From: an uncultured Acidobacteriota bacterium
Lineage (GTDB): Bacteria; Acidobacteriota; Vicinamibacteria; Vicinamibacterales; UBA2999
Direction of reading: 5' to 3'
DNA: 43,115 bases
Assembly: GCA_902826515.1 (NCBI GenBank)
Contig: CADEFD010000030.1
Location: forward strand, 1 to 43,115
Shown here: positions 28,645 to 43,115 of the stretch, one piece after another
How the letters are laid out: every line of letters begins with the position of its first letter
Numbering within the stretch: position 1 is the first letter of the stretch
Notes under the pieces: model-generated
What the model was told of the DNA's origin: nothing
The model's database searches: none
What the model saw: the letters and a program-made list of their open reading frames with translations, nothing else
Program-made: the position numbers and the translations under genes

Positions 28645-29106
28645 CTACGAGGCCGTCGCCGGATGACTGCGATCGTCGAGCCGGCCGATCTTGGCGACCC
28701 GCTGTTCGTGCCGGCCGCCGGCGAACGGCGTGTCGAGGAAGGCCGCGACGATGCGCTCGGCTTCTTCGATGCCGGTGCGCCGCGCGCCGAGCGTGAGGAC
28801 GTTCAGATCGTTGTGTTCGCGGGCCAGCACGGCGCCCTCGACATCGACGATCGGCGCCGCGCGCACGCCGCGCACCTTGTTGGCGGCAATCGACATCCCG
28901 ACGCCGCTGCCGCAGACGAGGATGCCGCGGTCGGCGCGACCGCCGGCGACGGCATCGGCCACCTGCACGGCGTAATCGGGATAGTCGACCGACGAGGTGG
29001 AAGCCGTGCCGACATCGTGCCAGGCCACGCCCCGCGCATCGAGCGCGCGTTTGAGCGCTTCCTTCAACTCGAAGCCTGCGTGATCGGCGCCGAGCGCGAC
29101 GAACAT
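28645..29106 (-). CDS. rpiB: Ribose-5-phosphate isomerase B
   Basis: A 153-residue RpiB/LacAB-type isomerase of the pentose-phosphate pathway (ribose-5-P to ribulose-5-P). Key parts are [11 protein letters not shown], the catalytic C65 ([20 protein letters not shown]) and H98 ([12 protein letters not shown]). It starts at ATG 29106, the first gene of the directon that runs to 20835. A TACAAT box lies exactly 6 nt upstream with no ribosome site, so the mRNA is predicted to be leaderless. Confidence 0.96.
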
Positions 29107-29112
29107 GCCGAG

Positions 29113-29118
29113 ATTGTA
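29113..29118 (-). promoter_or_regulatory. -10 box of rpiB, overlapping that of rlmI
   Basis: On the minus strand TACAAT is followed by six bases and then ATG 29106. It shares two bases (29117-29118) with the rlmI box on the plus strand. Confidence 0.55.
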
Positions 29119-29122
29119 CACT
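29117..29122 (+). promoter_or_regulatory. -10 box of rlmI, overlapping that of rpiB
   Basis: TACACT, then AGCGGG, then ATG 29129. There is no Shine-Dalgarno. The two divergent start codons are only 22 nt apart. Confidence 0.55.
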
Positions 29123-29128
29123 AGCGGG

Positions 29129-30289
29129 ATGGCCGCTGTTTCGATCTCGCCGCGTGGGGAAGCCCGTCTGCGCCACGGCCATCCCTGGATCTATCGTTCG
29201 GACGTGGATGCCGGCGGCGCTGCCGGCGGTGACGTCGTGACGGTGCGCGGCGCGCGCGACCGTGTGCTCGGGCAGGCGTTCTTCAGCGATCGCTCGCAGA
29301 TCGCCCTGCGCATGGTGACGCGCGACGATCGGCCGGTGGACGAGGCGTTCTGGCGGGCCCGGCTCGAAGCGGCGATCGGCTTCCGCTCCACGCTCGGCAT
29401 CGACGCCACGGCCTGCCGGCTCGTCCACGGCGAGGCGGATCTGCTGCCGTCGATCATCGTGGACCGCTACGGCGACGTCCTGGTCGTGCAGACGCTGTCG
29501 CAGGGCTCCGATCAGCTGCTGCCGGTGCTCACGCGGCTGCTGGCCGAGCTGACCGGCGCCACCGGCATCATCGAACGCAACGATCCGCGCGTGCGCCAGC
29601 TCGAAGGTCTCGAGTCGCGCGTGTCGGTCGTGCACGGCGAGGTGCCGGCGCGGGTGGCCGTGCGTGAAGGGCCGGTCGAGTACGACGTCGACGTCCACGG
29701 CGGCCAGAAGACCGGCCTCTTCCTCGATCAGCGCGAGAACCACGCCGCCGCGGCCGGCTACGCGCGTGGCCGGCTGCTCGATGCCTTCAGTTATCACGGC
29801 GGCTTCGCGCTGGCGCTCGCCGCCGCGTGTTCGAGCGTCGAGGCGCTCGACGTGTCGGCCGACGCCGTCGCGACGATCGCGTCGAATGCGCTCAAGAACC
29901 GGCTGCCGCACGTGCAGGCCCGCGAGGCCAACGCCTTCGACGAACTGCGCCGTCTGGAGAAGGCCGGTGCGCGCTACGAGACGGTGGTGCTCGATCCGCC
30001 GGCGTTCGCGAAGAACAAGGCCTCGGTCGAGAAAGCGCTCTCGGGCTACAAGGACATCAACCTGCGGGCGCTGCGCCTGCTCGAGCCCGGCGGTTTCCTC
30101 GTGACGTGTTCGTGTTCCCACCACGTGGACGAGGACACCTTCGCGGAGGTCGTGCACGCGGCGGCCGCCGACGCCGGCAGCCTTGTCTCGGTGGTCGAGC
30201 AGCGCACGCAGGGGCGCGATCACCCGGTACTCCTCGGCGTGCCCGAGACCAAATACCTGAAGTGCCTGATTCTGCGGAAACTGGCCTGA
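29129..30289 (+). CDS. rlmI: RlmI-like 23S rRNA (cytosine-5) methyltransferase
   Basis: A 386-residue class I SAM-dependent methyltransferase. The N-terminal PUA domain ([20 protein letters not shown]) is followed by a central domain ([20 protein letters not shown]) and the catalytic Rossmann domain: [25 protein letters not shown] (SAM loop), [12 protein letters not shown] and [12 protein letters not shown] with the catalytic Cys. Family members methylate C1962 of 23S rRNA. The start at ATG 29129 is chosen over an upstream in-frame ATG that would overlap rpiB and the promoter. Confidence 0.94.
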
Positions 30290-30462: not shown

Positions 30463-31812
30463 ATGACCTACGGTCAGTACCGCCCCGTTGCGGGCGCGTT
30501 CGCGTTGACAGCGTTGATGGCAGTGCCCTCGTTCGCGCAGACCGCTGCGAACGCTCCGACGTTCACGAAGGACGTCGCGCCGATCTTCCAGGCGAAGTGC
30601 GAGTCGTGCCACCGGCCCGATTCGATCGCGCCGATGTCGCTCGTCACCTACGAGCAGTCGCGTCCGTGGGCGCGCTCGATTCGTGACCGCGTGCAGACGC
30701 GGCAGATGCCGCCCTGGCACATCGACAAGTCGCTCGGCATCCAGCACTTCGAAAACGACCGGTCGCTCTCCGACGCCGAGATCGACACGATCGTGAAGTG
30801 GGTGGCCGCCGGCGCGCCGAAGGGCGACGTGAAGGACATGCCGAAGGCCATCGAATGGCCGGTGAACGACGGCTGGAACTTCGAGAAGCTGTACGGCAAG
30901 CCCGATCTCGTCATCAAGTCGCCTGCCTACACGCAGAAGGGCAACGCGATGGACGCCTGGTACAAGCCGGTGCAGGCCACGGGCCTCACGGAAGACCGCT
31001 GGGTGCGCGCCATCGAAATGCGTCCGTCCACCGTGCCCGGCCGCAAGATCACGCATCACGCGCTGGCGCGCCTGCAGCAGGACGACGGCGAAACCGGCAA
31101 CTCGGCCGCCGCCGGCGGCGACGACCCGGGCCCGGGCCTCTTCATGGAATGGGCCGTCGGCAAGCAGGGCGAGATCATGCGCGAGAACTCGGGCAAGCTC
31201 ATGAAGCCCGGCTCGAAGATCGTGTGGGACATCCACTACCACGCCGTGGGTGAGGACATCACCGACACGGTGGAACTGGGCATCTACTTCTACCCGAAGG
31301 GCCAGGAGCCGAAGTTCCGCCAGACGCTGGCGCTCTTCAGCGGCATCACCGGCGGCAACCGCGCCCTCGACATCGCGCCCAACTCGCTCAGCGTCACGCA
31401 GGGCTTCCACGTGATGAAGAAGGCCGGGCGGGTCGAGAACTTCCAGCCGCACATGCACCTGCGCGGCAAGGCGATGTCGATGGAAGCCATCCTGCCGACC
31501 GGGCAGGTGCAGATGCTCAGCCAGGTGAGCGACTACAGCTTCAACTGGCACACCAACTACGTCTACGCCGACGACGCCGCGCCGCTGCTGCCCAAGGGCA
31601 CCATCCTGCGCATCACCTCGTGGCACGACAACACGGCCGCCAACAAGAACAACCCCGACCCCAATCAGTGGGTGGGCTGGGGCGACCGCACGGTGGACGA
31701 AATGGCGCACGCGTGGGTGAACATCACCTACATGGACGAGGCCGACTTCAAGGTCGAAGTCGAAAAGCGCAAGGCCAAGACGGCCACCACCTCGGACCGT
31801 CAGCAGCAGTAG
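30463..31812 (+). CDS. Secreted c-heme/PHM-like type II copper monooxygenase-domain protein
   Basis: 449 residues from ATG 30463 (GGAGGA 7 nt upstream). The signal peptide ends near SFAQ25. An N-terminal cytochrome-c-like domain has one heme motif, C46-ES-C49-H50 (FQAKCESCHRPDS). The second part carries the ligand order of peptidylglycine hydroxylating and dopamine beta-monooxygenases: H198-H199 (ITHHALA), H258 or H260 (WDIHYHAVGE), H330-x-H332 (FQPHMHLRGKAM) and M414 (TVDEMAHAW). Spacings of about 60, 72 and 82 residues are close to PHM (64, 70, 70). The function is probably oxygen-dependent hydroxylation in the envelope, with electrons possibly supplied through the heme. The substrate is unknown. 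A strong terminator follows the gene. Confidence 0.85.
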   Translation: MTYGQYRPVAGAFALTALMAVPSFAQTAANAPTFTKDVAPIFQAKCESCHRPDSIAPMSLVTYEQSRPWARSIRDRVQTRQMPPWHIDKSLGIQHFENDRSLSDAEIDTIVKWVAAGAPKGDVKDMPKAIEWPVNDGWNFEKLYGKPDLVIKSPAYTQKGNAMDAWYKPVQATGLTEDRWVRAIEMRPSTVPGRKITHHALARLQQDDGETGNSAAAGGDDPGPGLFMEWAVGKQGEIMRENSGKLMKPGSKIVWDIHYHAVGEDITDTVELGIYFYPKGQEPKFRQTLALFSGITGGNRALDIAPNSLSVTQGFHVMKKAGRVENFQPHMHLRGKAMSMEAILPTGQVQMLSQVSDYSFNWHTNYVYADDAAPLLPKGTILRITSWHDNTAANKNNPDPNQWVGWGDRTVDEMAHAWVNITYMDEADFKVEVEKRKAKTATTSDRQQQ

Positions 31813-31821
31813 CAGGCCGCG

Positions 31822-31833
31822 GAGCGGCCGCTC
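31822..31833. repeat. Perfect 12-bp palindrome after the heme-copper gene
   Basis: GAGCGGCCGCTC begins 9 nt after the stop codon at 31812. Its role is unclear. It lies upstream of the terminator at 31855-31892 and could be a short stem that protects the mRNA end. Confidence 0.35.
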
Positions 31834-31854
31834 TGTAAACGACGAAGGACTACG

Positions 31855-31892
31855 CGGGGGTGCTGTCAATGGGCGGCACCCCCGTTTTCTTT
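31855..31892 (+). terminator. Rho-independent terminator or attenuator
   Basis: The stem CGGGGGTGC (31855-31863) pairs perfectly with GCACCCCCG (31876-31884) around a 12-nt loop, followed by TTTTCTTT. It lies 18 nt before the next start codon, so it can end the upstream transcript or attenuate read-through into the next gene. Confidence 0.8.
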
Positions 31893-31910
31893 GTGATGGA
31901 GTGGACGGCA

Positions 31911-32771
31911 ATGACTCGTTTCTTCTCGCTTCGTGCGATGGCGTCCGCCGCAGTGGTGGCGGCGGCCGTGGCTTTCACCCTGGTCTCGCCCGAGGGGCGG
32001 CAGCTGCCGCTCGAGGCGCTCAAGGACAGCGGCCAGCAGATCTACCCGGCCTTCGAGGGCTGGTACCAGAACCCCGACGGCAGCTACAACCTGCTCCTCG
32101 GCTACTACAACCGCAACCAGAAGCAGACGATCGACATCCCGGTGGGCCCGAACAACCGGGTCGAGCCCGGCGGACCCGACCTGGGCCAGCCCACACATTT
32201 CACGCCGCGGCGCGGCTGGGGCGTGTTCGCCATCAAGGTGCCGAAGGACTTCGGCAAGGACAAGCGCTTCACCTGGACCATCGTGGCCAACGGCAAGCCG
32301 GCCTCGGTGCCGGTGGGCCTCATTCCCGACTACCAGATCGAGCCGTTCAAGGACATGGGCGAGGGCAACACGCCGCCGGTGCTGAAGTTCACGCCCACCG
32401 GCAAGACGTTCACCGGGCCGCCGGTGGAAACCGCGCTCACGCTGAGCGGCACGGTGGGGCAGCCCGTGACGCTCGAAGTCATCACCACCGACGACCTGCA
32501 CACCGAAGAAGGTGAGAGCCCGGCCGCGGCCAGCCGCACGCCGCGGCTCGTGCAGTCGTGGCACCTTCACCGCGGACCGGCCGGCGGCGACGTGAAGTTC
32601 TCCGAGCAGCGCCCGAAGATCGGCGCTGATGGCAAGTCCACGACGACCGGCACGTTCACGGCGCCCGGCGAGTACGTGCTGCGCGCGCAGGCAAACGACA
32701 GCTCGGGCGAAGGCGGCGGCGGCTTCCAGTGCTGCTGGACCAACGCCTACGTGAAGGTCACGATCAAGTAG
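31911..32771 (+). CDS. Secreted beta-sandwich protein of unknown function
   Basis: 286 residues from ATG 31911; GGAG lies about 10 nt upstream. An N-terminal hydrophobic segment (MASAAVVAAAVAFTLVSPEG) is probably a signal peptide or anchor. The body is strand-rich: IYPAFEGWYQNPDGSYNLLL, NRVEPGGPDLGQPTHFTPRR, then an Ig-like end (APGEYVLRAQANDSSGEGGG). The adjacent Cys pair in GFQCCWTNAYVKV near the C-terminus is striking. I do not recognise the family. Its position between a heme-copper protein and an Oar-like receptor suggests an envelope role. The terminator just upstream implies its own start or regulated read-through; no promoter is obvious. Confidence 0.75.
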   Translation: MTRFFSLRAMASAAVVAAAVAFTLVSPEGRQLPLEALKDSGQQIYPAFEGWYQNPDGSYNLLLGYYNRNQKQTIDIPVGPNNRVEPGGPDLGQPTHFTPRRGWGVFAIKVPKDFGKDKRFTWTIVANGKPASVPVGLIPDYQIEPFKDMGEGNTPPVLKFTPTGKTFTGPPVETALTLSGTVGQPVTLEVITTDDLHTEEGESPAAASRTPRLVQSWHLHRGPAGGDVKFSEQRPKIGADGKSTTTGTFTAPGEYVLRAQANDSSGEGGGGFQCCWTNAYVKVTIK

Positions 32772-32826
32772 CGATCCGCGACGGCCGCGGCTCGCCGCGC
32801 CGAATCGGGAATATCGTGCTGCACCC

Positions 32827-32864
32827 AGCCGGTCGGCTTTGCGCCGACCGGCTTTTTGTTTTTT
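32827..32864 (+). terminator. Strong Rho-independent terminator
   Basis: AGCCGGTCGGC (32827-32837), loop TTTGC, GCCGACCGGCT (32843-32853), then a T-rich tail to 32864. A perfect 11-bp stem and long T-run end the 30463-32771 transcription block. Confidence 0.93.
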
Positions 32865-32931
32865 CACCCATCGCGTCGTCCAATGCGATGGATTGTCTTT
32901 GATTGTTGATTCGCCGAATCGATGCTATCGA

Positions 32932-32946
32932 CATGCATCATGCATG
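32932..32946. promoter_or_regulatory. 15-bp palindrome upstream of the TonB receptor promoter (possible operator)
   Basis: CATGCAT-C-ATGCATG is a perfect 7-bp inverted repeat with one central base, in an unusually AT-rich stretch. It ends 38 nt before the -35 box at 32985. Its position suits an activator or repressor site. Smaller inverted repeats (GATTCGCCGAATC at 32909-32921 region) lie just upstream. Confidence 0.4.
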
Positions 32947-32984
32947 AAACCCCTTGTTTTTCAGGGATTTCTGGTGTTTCGCCG

Positions 32985-33013
32985 TTGACTCATGCGCGTG
33001 ACGTCTGTAGCCT
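32985..33013 (+). promoter_or_regulatory. Predicted promoter of the TonB-dependent receptor gene
   Basis: TTGACT (32985-32990), a 17-nt spacer and TAGCCT (33008-33013). The start would be near 33020, leaving a leader of about 70 nt with GGAGG (33078-33082) before ATG 33091. Together with the terminator and the palindrome this accounts for the 319-base spacer; I see nothing else in it. Confidence 0.5.
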
Positions 33014-33090
33014 ATGTCGCGGCGCGGACTTCGCATGTCGAGTCGCGTCGCGCCAGATCCGGTCGATGTTTGCACTTGGAGGTTGGAAGC

Positions 33091-36090
33091 ATGTCGAGTA
33101 GAACCAGGCTAGCGTTGGCGCTGTGCCTGGCGTTCGTGGGAGTTGGACTTCTGTCAGCCCCCGCCTACGCTCAGAGTGCCATCAGTGGTGTGGTGAAGGA
33201 CGAAACGGGCGCGGTGATGCCCGGTGTGTCGGTCGAAGCCGCAAGTGACGCCCTCATCGAAAAGGTGCGCACGGCGGTGACCGACGAAAACGGGGCCTAC
33301 CGCATGATCGACCTGCGGCCCGGCAAGTACCTGCTGACCTTCACGCTGCAGGGCTTCAATGTGATCAAGCGCGAACTCGAGCTGCCCTCGAACTTCGTGG
33401 CCACGATCAACGCGGAACTCGCCGTCGGCACCCTGCAGGAATCGGTCACGGTGTCGGGGCAGTCCCCGCTCGTGGACGTGCAGAGCAACGTCAAGCAGCA
33501 GGTGCTGTCGCGCGACGTGCTCGATGCCGTGCCGACCGCCCGCACCATCCAGGGCCTGGGACAGCTGATTCCTGGTGTGACGTTCAACCAGCCTGATGTG
33601 GGCGGCTCGCGCGCCATGCAGCAGGTCTACTTCTTCGTCCGCGGCACCGGCTCGGCGCAGACGGTCGTGCTCGTCGACGGCCTGATGACCAACGGTCTCA
33701 TGGGCGACGGCGCCGTCAACGCCTACCACAACGAGGCGATGACGCAGGAAGCCGTGTACATGACCTCGGGCGGCAGCGCCGAGACCATGACGGGCGGCGT
33801 CACGCTCAACCTGGTGCCCAAGGACGGCGGCAACCGCTTCTCCGGTGGCTTCAAGTACGCCAAGAGCCCGGCCTCGTGGCAGGGCGACAACCTGACCGAC
33901 GAGCTCAAGTCGTTCAACGTCCGCGCTGTCGACAAGGTCGACAACTTCTACGAAGCCAACTTCGAGTTGGGCGGGCCCATTCTCCGCGACAAGCTGTGGT
34001 TCTTCGGCGCCTACCGCAAGGCGCGCTACGACAAGCCGATCGCCAACACCTTCAACCTGCCGAGCGGAGTGCCGGCGCCCCAGGCGTTTGCGCAGTGCCT
34101 GTCGGGTGCCATCAGCTGCGAACAGGGTATTTCAGACGAGAAGATGGACAACCCGATCCTGCGGCTCACCTGGCAGATGTCGCAGAAGAACAAGTTCGCC
34201 GTCTACTACGACCGCGCCCTTCGCCTGCGCGGCGCCGCCATGGGCAATGCGACCGACCCGCGCACGGCGTCGGTGGTGTGGAACACCCCGATCTTCGCAA
34301 CCGGTTCGGCCAAGTTCACCTCGACCCTGTCGTCGAGCCTGCTGCTCGAGACCGGCTTCTCGTTCAACCGCGAGCGCTACGACAACCTCTATCAGGACGG
34401 GATCTTCGCCGAACGCGGCACCCCCGAGTGGTACCGCAACGTGCGCAAGAACGACCAGAGCACGGGCTTCCTGTGGAACGCCTCATCGGCGCAGCTCGGC
34501 AACTACCCCGACCGCTACACCGTGTCCACGGCGATCTCGCGGGTGACCGGTTCGCACACCGCCAAGCTCGGCGTGCTGTATGGCTGGGGGCCCTACCGCC
34601 GCTACAACAACGCCAACGGCGACCTCTATCAGACCTACAACAACGGCGTGCCGCTGCAGGTCACCGTCCTCAATACGCCGCTCGAAGTGCAGGAGAACAT
34701 GGACGGCCAGTTCGCCGCCTACCTGCAGGATTCGTGGCGCCTGGGTAATGTCACGGTCAACTACGGCATCCGTTACGACCGCGTCGCACAGAGCGTCGCC
34801 GGTCAGGAGGCCCAGATCGGCCGTTTCGCCAACTCGCCGGCCTACGACGACATCAAGATTCCGACCTGGACCGACATCTCGCCTCGGACGTCGGTCGTGT
34901 GGGACATCTTCGGCAACGGCAAAACCGCCGTGCGCGGCGGCTACAACCGCTTCATGACGGCGCAGACGGTGGGTCTGGCGCAGCTCTACAGCCCCACGGC
35001 ACTGACCACGGCGAACATCGCGTGGCAGGACCTGAACGGCGACGACATCGCCCAGGGTGAACGAGGCTGCACCTACCTCACACCCGGCTGCGAAATCAAC
35101 CTCGCGCAGCTGCCGGCGAACTTCGGCATCCGCGCGCTGGCAACGCCCGACCCGGACATCCAGCGGCCCGGCCAGCACGCCTTCAACCTCGGCGTGACGC
35201 AGGAGCTCTTCAACCGCATCACGCTGACCGGCGAGTGGTATCACAACCGCTTCTTCGACATCACCGAGCGCAACAACGTGCTGCGGAATTTCGACAGCTA
35301 CACGCGGGTCGATGTGGTGAGTCCGCTTGACGGCAAGGTCATCCCGGCCTACAACGTGAAGCCCGAGTTCCTCTCCGCCGTGCAGAACGTGGACGTCCAC
35401 GACCCGGACATCAAGCGCGTCTACAACGGCTTCGAGCTCGGCTTCAACGCCCGGCTGCCGCGCGGCGCCCGGGTGTTCGGCGGGTTCAACCTCGAGCGGA
35501 CGCTGGCCGATACGTGCAGTGCCGGCACCGACCCGAACTTCACCGTCAACTGCAACCAGTGGGACAACGGCATTCCGTGGCAGACGCAGTTCAAGCTGTC
35601 GGCCGTCTACCCGTTGCCCTTCTGGGGCATCACTGCGAGCGGATCGTTCCGCAGCCTCTATGGCTACACCGTCGGCACGGCCGCCATCCCCTACGGCGTC
35701 TTCACCTTCGGCACGGGACTGACCCAGCCTCAGGGGCAGGGCACGTTCTGGCAGGTGACGCGCACGACCCGCTACGCGGCGAATTGTGCGGCTCCGTGCC
35801 GCCCGGGCGAGCTCGTGATTCCCGGGTTGACCACGGCCACCCTCAACGTGCCCCTGCGGGCGCCTGAGACCGAGTACATGCCGCGCATCAACCAGCTGGA
35901 CTTCTCGCTGAGCAAAGTCTTCACGGTTCGCGGCGTCCGGCTGCTGCCGAAGGTTGACGTCTTCAACGTGACCAACTCCGACCGCTGGTCGAGCGTCACG
36001 ACGGCGCAGTTCGGCGCTGCGACCTATCTCCAGCCGTCAACCATCCTCCAGGGCCGTCTGATCCGGCTGGCGATCGAGTCGAGCTGGTAG
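33091..36090 (+). CDS. Oar-like TonB-dependent outer-membrane receptor with carboxypeptidase-regulatory domain
   Basis: 999 residues. The signal peptide ends near SAPAYAQ28. A CarboxypepD_reg-like domain (AISGVVKDETGAVMPGVSVE, about 29-110) precedes a plug domain (RTIQGLGQLIPGVTF, FVRGTGSAQTVVLVDG, GGVTLNLVPKDGGN). A large beta-barrel follows to the C-terminus (LDFSLSKVFTVRGVRLLPKV, ending with IRLAIESSW and a terminal aromatic). This is the Oar/SusC-related type common in Acidobacteriota, used for import of peptides or glycans or for export-linked functions; the ligand is not visible. It is monocistronic, framed by two strong terminators and preceded by its own promoter. Confidence 0.93.
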   Translation: MSSRTRLALALCLAFVGVGLLSAPAYAQSAISGVVKDETGAVMPGVSVEAASDALIEKVRTAVTDENGAYRMIDLRPGKYLLTFTLQGFNVIKRELELPSNFVATINAELAVGTLQESVTVSGQSPLVDVQSNVKQQVLSRDVLDAVPTARTIQGLGQLIPGVTFNQPDVGGSRAMQQVYFFVRGTGSAQTVVLVDGLMTNGLMGDGAVNAYHNEAMTQEAVYMTSGGSAETMTGGVTLNLVPKDGGNRFSGGFKYAKSPASWQGDNLTDELKSFNVRAVDKVDNFYEANFELGGPILRDKLWFFGAYRKARYDKPIANTFNLPSGVPAPQAFAQCLSGAISCEQGISDEKMDNPILRLTWQMSQKNKFAVYYDRALRLRGAAMGNATDPRTASVVWNTPIFATGSAKFTSTLSSSLLLETGFSFNRERYDNLYQDGIFAERGTPEWYRNVRKNDQSTGFLWNASSAQLGNYPDRYTVSTAISRVTGSHTAKLGVLYGWGPYRRYNNANGDLYQTYNNGVPLQVTVLNTPLEVQENMDGQFAAYLQDSWRLGNVTVNYGIRYDRVAQSVAGQEAQIGRFANSPAYDDIKIPTWTDISPRTSVVWDIFGNGKTAVRGGYNRFMTAQTVGLAQLYSPTALTTANIAWQDLNGDDIAQGERGCTYLTPGCEINLAQLPANFGIRALATPDPDIQRPGQHAFNLGVTQELFNRITLTGEWYHNRFFDITERNNVLRNFDSYTRVDVVSPLDGKVIPAYNVKPEFLSAVQNVDVHDPDIKRVYNGFELGFNARLPRGARVFGGFNLERTLADTCSAGTDPNFTVNCNQWDNGIPWQTQFKLSAVYPLPFWGITASGSFRSLYGYTVGTAAIPYGVFTFGTGLTQPQGQGTFWQVTRTTRYAANCAAPCRPGELVIPGLTTATLNVPLRAPETEYMPRINQLDFSLSKVFTVRGVRLLPKVDVFNVTNSDRWSSVTTAQFGAATYLQPSTILQGRLIRLAIESSW

Positions 36091-36098
36091 GGTAAGGC

Positions 36099-36127
36099 CG
36101 GGTTCCGGGACCGGGGTCCCGGGGCTG
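36099..36127. repeat. GC-rich dispersed repeat, copy C
   Basis: CCGGGTTCCGGGACCGGGGT followed by CCCGGGGCTGG lies between the receptor stop and its terminator. It is a diverged copy of the unit found at 3001, 9746 and 42082. Confidence 0.5.
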
Positions 36128-36139
36128 GATTCACGGATC

Positions 36140-36173
36140 AGGGGCGGGTCTTCGGACCCGCCCCTTTTTCTTT
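36140..36173 (+). terminator. Strong Rho-independent terminator with UUCG tetraloop
   Basis: AGGGGCGGGTC (36140-36150), loop TTCG, GACCCGCCCCT (36155-36165), then TTTTCTTT. A perfect 11-bp stem closed by a stable UUCG loop. Confidence 0.95.
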
Positions 36174-36190
36174 GCCCGCGTGCGCGGCGC

Positions 36191-36196
36191 TATACT
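36191..36196 (+). promoter_or_regulatory. -10 box 6 nt before the redoxin gene start
   Basis: TATACT, then CGACTC, then GTG 36203. There is no ribosome site. A leaderless transcript covering redoxin and the heme-copper-TPR gene is predicted. Confidence 0.55.
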
Positions 36197-36202
36197 CGAC
36201 TC

Positions 36203-36781
36203 GTGATCCGCGCATCGAGCGTGCTGCGGCTGGGGCTCGTGGGGCTGCTGCTGTTGGCCCCGTCGGCCTCCCTGCATGCGCAGAGCGGCGTGCGCGACCT
36301 GACCGGCCGCGCCGTGACGCCCATCGAGCCCTCCGCCGCCGCGACGGTGCTGCTTTTCACCGCCGTCGAGTGCCCCATCTCGGATCGCTACGCGCCGGCG
36401 GTGCGCCGCCTTGCGGAGCGCTACGGCGCGAGAGGCGTGCGGTTCTGGCTGGTGTATCCCAATGAGGGCGAACTGCCCGACGCCGTCAAGGCGCACGCCG
36501 ATGCGTTCTCGTACGGCCTGCCGGTGGCGCTTGATACCGCGCGCGCCCTCGCCGACAAGGCGCAGGCCACCGTCACCCCGGAAGCCGCCGTCTTCGACCG
36601 CGACGGACGGCTTCGTTATCACGGCCGCATCGACGATCGGTACAGCGACTTCGGCGTCGATCGACCCGTGCCGACCACCCACGATCTCGACGACGCGCTC
36701 GCGGCGGTGCTCGCGGGCCGCACGGTGGCGCGCCCGGAGGCGAAGGCCGTGGGGTGCGCGATCGTCCGCCAGCGCCCGTGA
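36203..36781 (+). CDS. Secreted redoxin (thioredoxin-fold) protein, partner of the heme-copper-TPR protein
   Basis: 192 residues from GTG 36203. The signal peptide ends near LHAQ27. A thioredoxin-like domain has LLFTAVECPISDRYAPAVRR, in which C57 takes the place of the usual CxxC pair, and WLVYPNEGEL. A second Cys, C185, lies near the C-terminus (KAVGCAIV). Two distant cysteines instead of CxxC suggest a peroxiredoxin-like or copper-handling role rather than a disulfide isomerase. The next gene starts 2 nt after its stop, so the two products are made together. A role as copper chaperone or thiol reductant for the copper protein is inference. Confidence 0.8.
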   Translation: MIRASSVLRLGLVGLLLLAPSASLHAQSGVRDLTGRAVTPIEPSAAATVLLFTAVECPISDRYAPAVRRLAERYGARGVRFWLVYPNEGELPDAVKAHADAFSYGLPVALDTARALADKAQATVTPEAAVFDRDGRLRYHGRIDDRYSDFGVDRPVPTTHDLDDALAAVLAGRTVARPEAKAVGCAIVRQRP

Positions 36782-36783
36782 CC

Positions 36784-38925
36784 ATGCGCGCGCTGTCTCT
36801 CTGCGTCGTGTGGGTCCTGGCCGCGGCGATCGGCCTGGCGGCACCCGTGTCGGCGCAGACGGCCGAGCCCGTCACCTTCAATCATCACATCGCCCCGCTG
36901 TTGCACAGCCACTGCGCGCAGTGTCATCGCCCCGGCGGGGCCGGGCCATTCAGCCTGCTCACCTTCGCCGAGACGGCCAAGCGGGCCGCCCAGCTCGCAG
37001 CCGTGACCGGCAGCGGGTTCATGCCGCCCTGGAAGGCCGACGGACACCCGGACGAATTCGTGGCGCAGCCGCGGCTCACGCCGGAGGAAGTGGCGCGCTT
37101 CGCGCGCTGGGCGTCGGCGCCGGTGGAAGGGCCGGGCAAGGCGCCCGCGCCACCGACGTGGCCGGCCGGCTGGTATCTGGGGCAGCCCGACCTCATCGTG
37201 ACGCTGCCGGCCGGTTACACGCTGCCCGGCGAGCCCTCGGACGTCTTCCGCATCTTCGCCGTGCCGCTCAAGGTCAGCGGCACGAAGTACGTGCGCGGCA
37301 TCGAGTTCCACCCAGGCAACCCGCGCGTCGTGCACCACGCCAACATCCGCATCGACCGCACGAACGGCTCGCGGCGGCTCGACGACGCCGACCCGGCCCC
37401 CGGCTACGACGGCCTGATGGCTCGCAGCGCGGAATATCCCGATGGCCACTTCCTGGGCTGGACGCCCGGCCAGATTGCGCCGCTCGTGGACGGCGACCTC
37501 GCGTGGCGACTCGACCCGGGCACCGACCTCGTCGTGCAGCTGCACATGCAGCCGAGCGGCAAGCCCGAGCCCGTGCAGCCGGTCATCGGCTTCTACTTCG
37601 GCGACCGTCCGGCCACGCGCACGCCGTCGATCCTGCGTCTCGGCTCGCAGGGCATCGACATCCCGCCCGGCGAGGGGCAGTACGTGGTGGAGGACCGCTA
37701 CAGGCTGCCCGTGAACACGACGCTGCTCGCCGTACAGCCGCACGCGCACTACCGCGCGAAGGACGTGACCGGCACGGCCACGTTGCCGGACGGCTCGACG
37801 CGCACGCTCATCCACATCGGCAACTGGGACTTCCGCTGGCAGCACGTCTATCGCTACACGGCCCCCATCCGCCTGCCGAAGGGCACGACGGTGGCGATGA
37901 GGTACGTCTACGACAACTCGCCGGAGAATCCGCGAAACCCGCAGGTGCCCACGGCGCGGGTGCGCTGGGGCCAGAAGTCGTTCGACGAGATGGGCGACCT
38001 GTGGTTCCAGCTCGCGACCGAGAGCGAGGCGGACCGCACCGTACTCGGCACCGAGGTGCAGGCGAAGATGACCGGCGAAGACCTCATCGGCCTCGAGACG
38101 ATGCTGCTCTCGAGTCCGGACGACACCGAGCTGCACGACGACGCCGGCGTCCTGGCGCTGGCACTCGGGCAGCCGGCAGCCGCCGTACAGCACTTCGCCG
38201 CCACCGCCGAGCGCAGGCCCGAGAGTGCCAGCGCCCACTACAACCTCGGCACGGCCCTCACCTCGGCGGGCCTCTATGACGACGCCGTGGTCGCATACGA
38301 GCGTGCCCTCAGGCTGAATCCCCGCTATGCACGGGCGCTCAACAACCTGGGCGACACGCTGGTCACGATTGGACGAGCCGACGAGGGGATCAAGCGCTAC
38401 GAGGCGGCGGTGGCCGCCGAACCGCAGATGCCGGAAGCCCGCAACAACCTCGGCGCGGCGTTGTGGCGCAAGGGCGAACTGCTGCGAGCCGAGCGCGAGC
38501 TGAACGAGGCCATCCGCCTGCGGCCCGACTACGCCGAGGCCTACTTCAACCTCGGCCACACCGCCGTGCGCGACAAGCGGCTTGCCGACGCGGCCGCCCA
38601 TTTCCGCAAGGCGGCCACGCTCAAGGACGACTGGCTGGTGGCCCTGACCTCCGCCGCCTGGGTGCTCGCCACGGCGGGCGACGGGAGCGTGCGCGCGCCG
38701 GCCGAGGCCGTGAGCTTCGCCGAGCGTGCCGCCAGACTCACCGCGCGCCGCGACGCCCGTACGCTCGATGTGCTGGCCGTGTCCTACGCATCAGCGGGGC
38801 GATTCGACGACGCCGTGCTGACCGCGCGCGAGGCGCAGGCCCTGGCCGATCCGGCGCTGGCCAGGCAGATCAGCGCGCGCCTCGCCATGTTCGAGCGGCG
38901 CGAAGCGTTCGTGGACAAGCAGTAG
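36784..38925 (+). CDS. Secreted c-heme/PHM-like copper monooxygenase protein with TPR tail
   Basis: 713 residues from ATG 36784. A signal peptide (to about SAQ25) is followed by a one-heme domain, C44-AQ-C47-H48 (HSHCAQCHRPGG). The PHM-like part has H184-H185 (RVVHHANIRI), H254 (VVQLHMQPSG), H320-x-H322 (VQPHAHYRAKD) and M403 (KSFDEMGDLWFQ), the full type II copper ligand set. From about residue 440 to the end there are seven or so TPR units (for example AHYNLGTALTSAGLYDDAVV). It is a paralogue of the protein at 30463 with an added TPR scaffold. It probably works in the periplasm. It is encoded with a redoxin and followed by an M28 peptidase gene. Confidence 0.87.
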   Translation: MRALSLCVVWVLAAAIGLAAPVSAQTAEPVTFNHHIAPLLHSHCAQCHRPGGAGPFSLLTFAETAKRAAQLAAVTGSGFMPPWKADGHPDEFVAQPRLTPEEVARFARWASAPVEGPGKAPAPPTWPAGWYLGQPDLIVTLPAGYTLPGEPSDVFRIFAVPLKVSGTKYVRGIEFHPGNPRVVHHANIRIDRTNGSRRLDDADPAPGYDGLMARSAEYPDGHFLGWTPGQIAPLVDGDLAWRLDPGTDLVVQLHMQPSGKPEPVQPVIGFYFGDRPATRTPSILRLGSQGIDIPPGEGQYVVEDRYRLPVNTTLLAVQPHAHYRAKDVTGTATLPDGSTRTLIHIGNWDFRWQHVYRYTAPIRLPKGTTVAMRYVYDNSPENPRNPQVPTARVRWGQKSFDEMGDLWFQLATESEADRTVLGTEVQAKMTGEDLIGLETMLLSSPDDTELHDDAGVLALALGQPAAAVQHFAATAERRPESASAHYNLGTALTSAGLYDDAVVAYERALRLNPRYARALNNLGDTLVTIGRADEGIKRYEAAVAAEPQMPEARNNLGAALWRKGELLRAERELNEAIRLRPDYAEAYFNLGHTAVRDKRLADAAAHFRKAATLKDDWLVALTSAAWVLATAGDGSVRAPAEAVSFAERAARLTARRDARTLDVLAVSYASAGRFDDAVLTAREAQALADPALARQISARLAMFERREAFVDKQ

Positions 38926-38966
38926 CCGCGCGGTCCGCGGCGCTTGCGTCGCCCGGCGCGGCCGGA

Positions 38967-38972
38967 TAACCT
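38967..38972 (+). promoter_or_regulatory. -10-like box 7 nt before the M28 peptidase start
   Basis: TAACCT, seven bases, then ATG 38980. It fits the TAnnnT leaderless spacing. The similarity to TATAAT is limited, so this is tentative. Confidence 0.35.
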
Positions 38973-38979
38973 CGCGGGC

Positions 38980-41160
38980 ATGCGTCGTCCGATTGTCCTT
39001 GCCGCCGTCCTGCTCGCCCTCGTCCAGCTCCAGCCGGTGCGTCTTGCCGGCCAGGCGCCGGCCCTGCGCGGGTTTCCGTCCGACAGTCTGGCCGCCCAGC
39101 GCGCCCTCGAAGACAAGTTCCGCGCCGTGCCGGATCCGGCGCGGCTGCGCGAGTACATGCGCGCGATGACCGAGGAGCCGCACGTGGCCGGCCGTCCCGG
39201 CTCGAAGAAGGTCGCCGATTACGCGCTGGCGAAGTTCAAGTCGTTCGGCCTCGAGGCCTCGATCGAGGAGTTCGAGGCCTACATGCCGTGGCCACTCGAG
39301 CGGCGGCTCGAGATGGTGGCGCCAGTGGGCCGCGCGATGCTCATCCAGGAGCCGCCGGTCGCAAGCGATCCCGATTCGACCGACAACGACCAGACGCCCA
39401 CCTACAACGCCTATTCGGCCGACGGCGACGTCACGGGCGAAGTGGTCTACGTCAACTACGGCGTGCCGGCCGACTACGAGCAGCTCGAGAAACTCGGCGT
39501 GAGCGTGAAGGGCAAGATCGTGCTGTCGCGCTACGGCGGGAGCTGGCGCGGCATCAAGCCGAAGGTCGCCTACGAACACGGCGCCATCGGCTGCCTCATC
39601 TTCTCCGACCCGAAGGACGACGGTTTCTTCCAGGGCGAGGTTTATCCCGACGGGCCGTACCGGCCGGAGTTCGGTGTGCAGCGCGGCAGCGTGATGGACA
39701 TGCCGATCCACACCGGCGATCCGCTCACGCCCGGCTGGGGCTCGACGGCCGGCGGGAAGAAGCTGCCGGTCAGCGAGGCGAAGACCATCCTCAAGATCCC
39801 GGTGATGCCGATCGCGTGGGGGGACGCGCTGCCGATCTTCCAGGCGATGCGTGGTCCGGTGGCGCCCGAGTCGTGGCGCGGCGGCATGCCGGTGACCTAC
39901 CGCATGGGCGGCGGACCGCTCAAGATGCGCCTCAAGCTCACGCACGAGTGGAAGTCGCGGCCGCTCTACAACGTGGTCGTCCGCATTCCCGGGGCGACGC
40001 TGCCCGACGAGTGGGTGATGTTCGGCAACCACCACGACGCGTGGGTCAACGGCGCCGACGATCCGGTGAGCGGCGCGGTGTCGCTCATGGAAGTGGCGCG
40101 CGGCCTCGGCGAGCTCGTGAAGGGCGGCTGGCGTCCGAAGCGCACGATCGTGCTGGCGCTCTGGGACGGCGAGGAATGGGGCCTGCTCGGGTCCACCGAA
40201 TGGGCCGAAGCGCATCGCGATGAACTCAACGGCAAGGGCGTCGTCTACATCAACACCGACGGCACCGGCAAAGGCTGGCTGAACGCCGGCGGCTCGCACT
40301 CGCTGCAGCAGTTCGTGACCGAAGTGGCGCGCGACATCAACGACCCGCGCACCGGCAAGCCCGTGCTCGAGGTGGGCCGCCGCAAGGCCATCGAGGGCCT
40401 GCCCGAGGCCGAACGGGCCGAGGCCGAGAAGGATCCGAACATCCGTATCGCGCCGCTCGGCTCGGGCTCGGACTTCACGCCGTTCCTGCAGCATCTCACC
40501 GTAGCCTCGCTCAACCTGAGCTTCGGCGGCGAAAGTCCGGGCGGCGTGTATCACTCGGTCTACGACTCGTTCGAGTGGTACACGCGCTTCTCCGACACCG
40601 ACTTCACCTACGGCCGCACGCTGGCGCAGGTGACGGGCACCGCGGTGCTGCGGCTCTCGGAAGCGGCGGTGTTGCCGTTCCGCTTCTCGGACATGAGCGA
40701 CACGCTGGCGCGCTACGCCGCCGACGTGCAGAAGCTCCACGCCGGAAAGAAGGACGCGCCGGCCATCGACTTCGCGCCGCTCACCGCCGCCGTGGCGGCG
40801 CTGTCGAAGGCATCGATGGCGTTCGAGAAGGCGCACGCCGGGGTGCCGGCCGCCAGCGCCAAAGCGCTCCAGACGCAGGAAGAAGCCCTCAAGGTGGTGA
40901 ATCAGCTGGTGTTCTCGTCGGAGCGCCGCCTCGGCAACGAAGCCGGGCTGCCGCGTCGCGACTGGTTCCGCCATCAGATCTACGCGCCTGGCTTCTACAC
41001 GGGCTACGGCGTGAAGACGCTGCCGCAGATCCGCGAAGGACTGGAAGAGGGCCAGTGGGACGAAGCGCGCCAGGGCGTCACGAAGGTGGCCGCGGCCATC
41101 AACGCGCTGGCCGCGCAGGTGGATCGCGCCTCGGCCGGGCTGTCGCGCGTCGGCAAGTAG
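38980..41160 (+). CDS. Secreted M28 zinc peptidase, glutamate carboxypeptidase II-like
   Basis: 726 residues with a signal peptide (to about LAGQ25). A protease-associated (PA) insertion lies around residues 140-280. The M28B catalytic domain has the two-zinc ligand set of GCPII with equal spacing: H351 and D361 (GNHHDAWVNGADDPVSG), catalytic E398 and ligand E399 (LWDGEEWGLLGSTEW), D427 (YINTDGTG) and H525 (YHSVYDS). A helical TfR-dimerisation-like domain closes the protein. It removes C-terminal residues, often acidic, from peptides outside the cytoplasm. The gene lies 54 nt after the heme-copper-TPR gene and converges on the AAC(3)-like gene. Confidence 0.93.
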   Translation: MRRPIVLAAVLLALVQLQPVRLAGQAPALRGFPSDSLAAQRALEDKFRAVPDPARLREYMRAMTEEPHVAGRPGSKKVADYALAKFKSFGLEASIEEFEAYMPWPLERRLEMVAPVGRAMLIQEPPVASDPDSTDNDQTPTYNAYSADGDVTGEVVYVNYGVPADYEQLEKLGVSVKGKIVLSRYGGSWRGIKPKVAYEHGAIGCLIFSDPKDDGFFQGEVYPDGPYRPEFGVQRGSVMDMPIHTGDPLTPGWGSTAGGKKLPVSEAKTILKIPVMPIAWGDALPIFQAMRGPVAPESWRGGMPVTYRMGGGPLKMRLKLTHEWKSRPLYNVVVRIPGATLPDEWVMFGNHHDAWVNGADDPVSGAVSLMEVARGLGELVKGGWRPKRTIVLALWDGEEWGLLGSTEWAEAHRDELNGKGVVYINTDGTGKGWLNAGGSHSLQQFVTEVARDINDPRTGKPVLEVGRRKAIEGLPEAERAEAEKDPNIRIAPLGSGSDFTPFLQHLTVASLNLSFGGESPGGVYHSVYDSFEWYTRFSDTDFTYGRTLAQVTGTAVLRLSEAAVLPFRFSDMSDTLARYAADVQKLHAGKKDAPAIDFAPLTAAVAALSKASMAFEKAHAGVPAASAKALQTQEEALKVVNQLVFSSERRLGNEAGLPRRDWFRHQIYAPGFYTGYGVKTLPQIREGLEEGQWDEARQGVTKVAAAINALAAQVDRASAGLSRVGK

Positions 41161-41175
41161 CCGCGACCGCCTCGG

Positions 41176-41985
41176 TCAGAGGGCCGGGCGGAGGTGCTGC
41201 GTCATCCAGCGAGCGGCGAAGTCCACGAGATCGCGAGCGTCCAGGCGCTCGCTCGTGGCGCCGCCGATGGTGCCGCGCGCCACGGGACGGGCGGCCATGT
41301 AGTCCGCGAGGATGAGCGAGAAGTAGTCCTCGCCCTGCCAGTCCACGATGCCCAGGCTGTCGTCGAGGCATTCGACCACGCGCACCTCCGGGCCGCTCGG
41401 GCCGAGCACGCGGCGATGCCGTCGCACGCGCCGCTTGTCGGGCACGTGCGCCAGGTACTCGGCGTAGTGGAGCAGCGTGACGGTGTTGGTGTCGGCGCCA
41501 AGTCGCAGCACCGATCCGCCCGCCTCCACCACGCGCTCGAGTGGTGAGCCCGGTCCGTAGTAGTCGTGCCACGGTACGTCGGTCATGAGTTCGGCGGCCC
41601 GGCGGCCGCGCGCGCCGAAGCGCCCCTCCGGATGGTCCGAGACCACCGTGCCGGGCGTCGTGCGGAAGAGCTCCGCCAGCAGGCCCACGTCTTCCTGCGC
41701 CGGCGTCGTCAGCGGGTCGAAAGGCTCGGCGTCGACGAGCAGCGCCTCCCGCGCGTCGTCCGAATGTTCGTTCACCCACGACCAGTCGTCGCGCGCGCCG
41801 AGCACCATCAGCCACGTGCCGTCGTCGCCCACCGCCGCGTCCACGGCCGCGACGATGCCGGCGGCATCACCCTCGACCGGACCGATCCGGCGCAGCGAGG
41901 CATGCACCATGAGCACCTCCCCGGGCGTCACGCCGAGGCGGCGCATCTCATCGCAGAGCTGGGCGGGAGTTGACCGCGCGGCCAT
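41176..41985 (-). CDS. AAC(3)-fold (Antibiotic_NAT) acetyltransferase
   Basis: 269 residues with the PF02522-type pattern: GEVLMVHASLRRIGPVEG, VSDHPEGRFGARGRRA and a His in TLLHYAEYLA. Members transfer acetyl from acetyl-CoA to 3-amino groups of aminoglycosides or to other amines. Many environmental members have no resistance role, and nothing here points to mobility or resistance. The usual HPxxSFAA segment reads HPEGRFGA, a difference that may alter the substrate. A GAGAAT box (minus strand, 41992-41997) lies 6 nt before ATG 41985, matching the leaderless pattern. Confidence 0.85.
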   Translation of the reverse strand: MAARSTPAQLCDEMRRLGVTPGEVLMVHASLRRIGPVEGDAAGIVAAVDAAVGDDGTWLMVLGARDDWSWVNEHSDDAREALLVDAEPFDPLTTPAQEDVGLLAELFRTTPGTVVSDHPEGRFGARGRRAAELMTDVPWHDYYGPGSPLERVVEAGGSVLRLGADTNTVTLLHYAEYLAHVPDKRRVRRHRRVLGPSGPEVRVVECLDDSLGIVDWQGEDYFSLILADYMAARPVARGTIGGATSERLDARDLVDFAARWMTQHLRPAL

Positions 41986-41991
41986 GACCGG

Positions 41992-41997
41992 ATTCTC
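41992..41997 (-). promoter_or_regulatory. -10-like box 6 nt before the AAC(3)-like gene
   Basis: GAGAAT on the minus strand, six bases, then ATG 41985. Four of six bases match TATAAT. It is the weakest of the leaderless set. Confidence 0.3.
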
Positions 41998-42033
41998 GCA
42001 TCGCCGGCGCCGGATCGTGCAGGCACCCTCTGA

Positions 42034-42039
42034 TATAGT
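42034..42039 (+). promoter_or_regulatory. -10 box of the thiC leader
   Basis: TATAGT, with no good -35 partner. Transcription would start near 42046, just before the TPP riboswitch. Confidence 0.5.
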
Positions 42040-42045
42040 CCGGAG

Positions 42046-43115
<1,070 letters not shown>

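Follow-up and report, generated by a model that had tools for sequence, protein, structure and literature searches.

Candidate periplasmic copper monooxygenases of the PHM/DBM superfamily with a built-in heme domain in Acidobacteriota

An 11 kb gene block in a 43,115-nucleotide stretch of DNA from an uncultured Acidobacteriota bacterium (the window) encodes two heme-PHM proteins, which probably act in the periplasm as dicopper monooxygenases with the PHM/DBM fold and a self-contained electron-transfer module, and which would hydroxylate a C–H bond of a small substrate; export, metal, heme, activity and electron route are what we infer. Hydroxylation had already been proposed in a sequence-only reading of this DNA, and it remains probable given the fold, the copper ligands and their conservation.

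Gene block, heme and copper motifs, and fold

Both heme-PHM reading frames and every motif named in the sequence-only reading were found where it had placed them, and the redoxin, Oar-like receptor, CCW protein and GCPII-like M28 peptidase that it described are all present in the block (Table 1), while a C-terminal TPR region in protein 2 had been overlooked. Secretion, which it had also claimed, is apparent from the signal-peptide-like N-termini of proteins 1 and 2. The redoxin stop codon is 2 bases from the start of protein 2. A hairpin scan returned 10 sites, where shuffled sequence gave a mean of 5.4; the block is probably divided into more than one transcription unit by the three terminator-like hairpins of Table 1, which have the longest stems. 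Upstream of the block lies a gene for an RlmI-like 23S rRNA cytosine C5-methyltransferase (29105-30289). The minus-strand gene at 41176-42240 encodes a putative aminoglycoside acetyltransferase-like protein, with an Antibiotic_NAT match of 6.9e-51 and a score of 242 of 270 bits, slightly under the cut-off, against the NCBIfam AAC(3) model.

Table 1. Genes, motifs and hairpins of the heme-PHM block (window positions)
Feature	Position	Strand	Remarks
Heme-PHM protein 1 (CCW type)	30463..31812	+	Signal-peptide-like N-terminus, c-type heme domain, two-domain PHM/DBM-like copper core
CxxCH (CESCH), protein 1	30598..30612	+	Heme-attachment motif; invariant in 59 sequences
QMPPW, protein 1	30703-30717	+	Invariant Met, likely distal heme ligand (inferred role)
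HH pair, protein 1	31054..31059	+	Aligned with PHM H107/H108 (CuH site); in THHA, 31051-31062
His, protein 1	31234..31236	+	Aligned with PHM H172 (CuH site); in DIHYH, 31228-31242
HxH, protein 1	31450..31458	+	Aligned with PHM H242/H244 (CuM site); in QPHMH, 31444-31458
Met, protein 1	31702..31704	+	Aligned with PHM M314 (CuM site); in VDEMAHAW, 31693-31716
Terminator-like hairpin	31854..31885	+	Between protein 1 and CCW genes; hairpin scan (putative function)
CCW partner protein	31911..32771	+	Two beta-sandwich (Ig/PKD-like) domains; signal-peptide-like N-terminus; QCCWT, 32727-32741
Terminator-like hairpin	32827..32853	+	3' of CCW gene; hairpin scan
Oar-like TonB-dependent receptor	about 33088..36090	+	CarboxypepD_reg, Plug, OMP_b-brl_4; no general partner of heme-PHM
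Terminator-like hairpin	36140..36165	+	Between receptor and redoxin genes; hairpin scan
Redoxin (AhpC/TSA)	36203..36781	+	One Cys in the ECPISDRY motif
Heme-PHM protein 2 (TPR type)	36784..38925	+	Heme domain, PHM-like core, TPR repeats
CAQCH, protein 2	36913-36927	+	Heme-attachment CxxCH
FMPPW, protein 2	37018-37032	+	Counterpart of QMPPW Met motif
VHHA, protein 2	37330-37341	+	HH motif
QLHMQ, protein 2	37537-37551	+	Single-His motif
QPHAH, protein 2	37735-37749	+	HxH motif
DEMGDLW, protein 2	37984-38004	+	Met motif
GCPII-like peptidase	38944..41160	+	PA, M28, TFR_dimer; block member in close relatives only

The claim that a CxxCH heme domain, N-terminal in both proteins, is fused to a full HH/H/HxH/M set held, well above what chance would give. 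An alignment of 59 relatives, in which protein 2 was also aligned, showed that the HH, H, HxH and M ligands are all invariant, as are the two features examined for a c-type heme domain, the CxxCH and the following Met (Met53, the candidate distal ligand). In a wider set spanning three groups, 67 of 68 members retain all six copper ligands. Profile alignment places the six ligands in register with those of rat PHM, a direct comparison that is statistically weak (P 0.098). The only cysteines of protein 1 are the heme pair, and Pfam cytochrome c models matched proteins 1 and 2 below cut-off only.

Structure prediction, which had been suggested as a check, recovered the PHM/DBH fold for protein 1. 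The AlphaFold model (mean pLDDT 88, pTM 0.86) aligned with DBH at a VIA Z of 21.6 (295 aligned) and with PHM at 20.7, against 8.6 for the next family, PNGase, and the best 31 Foldseek rows were PHM or DBH without exception. A PDB sequence search with protein 1 and the 59-relative profile returned short cytochrome matches and noise, with PHM not found, and for the Pfam models Cu2_monooxygen and Cu2_monoox_C protein 1 gave no match, protein 2 (E 0.0077) stayed below the gathering score, which is a detection threshold and no biological feature, and nine of the 59 relatives matched weakly. A PHM-like protein from Nonomuraea bridges the family to Cu2_monoox_C (profile probability 98, E 1e-13), with ligands in register. 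On the strength of the predicted structure of protein 1, the ligands and this bridge, we assign the heme-PHM proteins to the PHM/DBM superfamily, the window proteins themselves being under the Pfam cut-offs.

Family spread and neighbouring genes

A survey of 396 Acidobacteriota genomes, in which only about four candidates were scored for each genome, found heme-PHM relatives in 88 of them and in 57 of 210 genera. In five genomes that were searched more thoroughly, the number of matches ranged from 10 to 33, counting in some cases pieces of the same gene; some genomes hold about 20-30 copies. A 68-member tree comprises three groups: one, which includes protein 1, whose members have a neighbouring CCW gene (44 of 45 rows); a TPR group, which includes protein 2; and one with neither. 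These labels are not perfectly single clades, requiring 4, 4 and 2 changes. Among the exceptions, the CCW gene near L138_10 was skipped by the gene caller and turned up at a distance of 542 bp in the genome search, while the CCW gene near L137_5 (TPR type) adjoins, as we read it, a different heme-PHM gene. In these 68 members, the copper-site residues stay the same in all but one, while the positions that hold substrate in PHM vary from group to group; the paralogs therefore probably use different substrates. In one related locus, a single ORF of 1248 aa (L160:4665-8408) encodes two heme-PHM units together with TPR repeats. A plasmid search for relatives outside the phylum yielded the Nonomuraea protein, a copper core without heme, and an Agarilytica match that is a multiheme cytochrome lacking copper motifs. 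No description of a heme-fused PHM was found in the open-access papers searched.

The most consistent neighbour of protein 1 relatives is the CCW gene, which is adjacent to heme-PHM in 78 of the 80 loci retrieved with protein 1. Conversely, 58 of 62 CCW genes in the five whole genomes lie no more than 700 bp from a heme-PHM gene. Distances among heme-PHM proteins correlate with those among their CCW partners (Spearman 0.68; 0 of 999 permutations as high); within single genomes, only the paralogs of G053 show this clearly, and those of G035 do not show it at all. A Cys-Cys-Trp near the C-terminus of the CCW protein is invariant. Fold comparison returned nonspecific Ig/PKD-like matches, the best of which (2yhg) reached Z 10.3 over 112 residues, and the CCW sequence found no match in the PDB. 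We regard the CCW protein as a dedicated partner of the protein 1 group that may present a substrate to the enzyme or serve to dock it. In a subgroup (L130:8104-8856, L169:4410-5177), the CCW gene is divergent from heme-PHM and not downstream of it.

A Pfam survey of neighbouring families revealed no constant partner of heme-PHM apart from CCW; PQQ dehydrogenases and NHL propellers recur near a minority of loci. Two related loci (L115:441-6213, L118:6588-12279) have an operon-like arrangement of NHL propeller, heme-PHM, CCW and PQQ dehydrogenase genes, and the propeller in both retains the rat PAL active-site residues. Large proteins encoded near heme-PHM genes (L141:10095-12644, L167:5935-8739) are the probable source of DUF1592-type (PSD/PSCyt) matches, each being followed by a gene whose product has a DUF1552-like N-terminus.

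The sequence-only reading had also inferred an envelope system from the genes of the block and named a neighbourhood survey as a check; the survey did not support one conserved receptor-redoxin-peptidase system, the redoxin going mainly with the TPR type. The redoxin gene adjoins genes for long heme-PHM proteins of this type in the window and in L203, L207, L208 and L209, and in L202 the two are fused in an 801-aa protein that consists of heme domain, PHM core, TPR and redoxin. A group-three locus (L157) has a redoxin gene about 0.9 kb from heme-PHM, and three redoxin loci (L204, L205 and L206, of which L205 is cut by the contig end) have no heme-PHM nearby. The redoxin may be viewed mainly as a companion of the TPR group, with a possible role in peroxide or thiol handling. 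Among loci with at least 5 kb of downstream sequence, the Oar-like receptor and the peptidase were each present in only 4 of 55, and both recur in close relatives only. It is improbable that the 11 kb block works as a single system for uptake and oxidation, with the receptor importing one substrate, the peptidase trimming it and both monooxygenases oxidising it: gene order is mostly preserved in same-family relatives (e.g. L046, L207, L209), but most heme-PHM loci lack the receptor and peptidase, and the block is divided by terminator-like hairpins.

Candidate chemistry and alternative readings

By analogy with animal PHM, an electron donor in the envelope would reduce the c-type heme, which is presumably His/Met-ligated, and electrons would then pass from heme to CuH (HH and H) and on to CuM (HxH and M), where O2 would be activated and a C–H bond of a small substrate hydroxylated. 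The heme would stand in for ascorbate, the reductant of animal PHM.

The substrate is unlikely to be peptidylglycine, because R240, N316 and Y318 of PHM, the residues that bind the peptide carboxylate, are replaced by Q, H and W (Q299, H387 and W389 of trimmed protein 1). The earlier suggestion of a route to peptide amidation is not supported, and bacterial peptide alpha-amidation, with heme-PHM hydroxylating a C-terminal glycine and a PAL-like lyase freeing the amide, seems highly improbable. The PHM-type core of the protein 1 model would fit such a role, as would the NHL propellers found in the fetched flanks of 9 of 80 loci, directly upstream in L115 and L118; most of these propellers keep residues aligned with the active-site His585/690/786, Arg533, Tyr654 and Arg706 of rat PAL. 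Against this, the window block has no PAL-like gene, and in the five whole genomes only 8 of 108 NHL/PAL-like genes lie within 3 kb of a heme-PHM gene, barely over the 3.7 expected by chance (P 0.035; P 0.21 at 1.5 kb and 0.055 at 5 kb). A PAL-like lyase was rejected as a general partner, as its active-site residues fit but its co-location is near chance.

Alternatively, the PHM-like core could bind copper without acting as a monooxygenase, serving as a redox protein that senses copper or oxygen, handles copper or uses peroxide. A heme domain with copper ligands is also compatible with a sensor or other oxidase chemistry, CCW and redoxin partners could suit redox handling, and the reductant requirement of PHM can be bypassed by H2O2 (PMC6123673). 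We nevertheless consider this unlikely, since both full copper sites, the CuM Met among them, persist in all three groups while substrate-pocket positions vary, as in an enzyme family that has diversified. Returning to hydroxylation, we tentatively propose a broader picture: the heme-PHM proteins may represent a large and diversified class of bacterial dicopper monooxygenases of the periplasm, in which a cytochrome c reductase domain is built in and an Ig/PKD-like protein serves as dedicated partner, and which would oxidise many different small molecules without ascorbate.

Comparison with known PHM and DBM enzymes

PHM and DBM are known mainly from animals, where these copper enzymes take electrons from ascorbate and make peptide hormones and noradrenaline. 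A bacterial branch with covalent heme would let the electron path to CuH and CuM be tested within one polypeptide, with the CCW gene as a clear handle on partner function. It would also indicate widespread, many-copy oxidative chemistry in Acidobacteriota, mostly missed by Pfam models, and suggests little-studied oxidation of small molecules outside the cytoplasm.

Protein 1 shares with rat PHM (1phm, 1opm, 6ala; Z 18.9-20.7) a two-domain beta-sandwich core with the six copper ligands in register. It differs in its added N-terminal c-type heme domain, its replaced peptide-carboxylate residues and its failure to reach Pfam cut-offs, and whereas PHM is a disulfide-bonded protein, protein 1 has no cysteines beyond the heme pair. 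Human DBH (4zel), the best structural match, likewise has an extra N-terminal domain before the core and the same types of ligand at CuH and CuM (PMC4846438), but its DOMON domain lacks heme ligands (PMC4846438); DBH combines DOMON and dimerisation domains, whereas heme-PHM has a CxxCH heme domain in front of the core. The actinobacterial PHM-like protein of Nonomuraea gerenzanensis (L201:2105-3433) has the same copper-ligand pattern and passes Pfam Cu2_monoox_C but, unlike heme-PHM, has no heme domain. Heme-PHM is a real variant among the PHM/DBM copper monooxygenases: a heme domain is built in, one group has CCW as its near-constant partner, and another group is linked to a redoxin.
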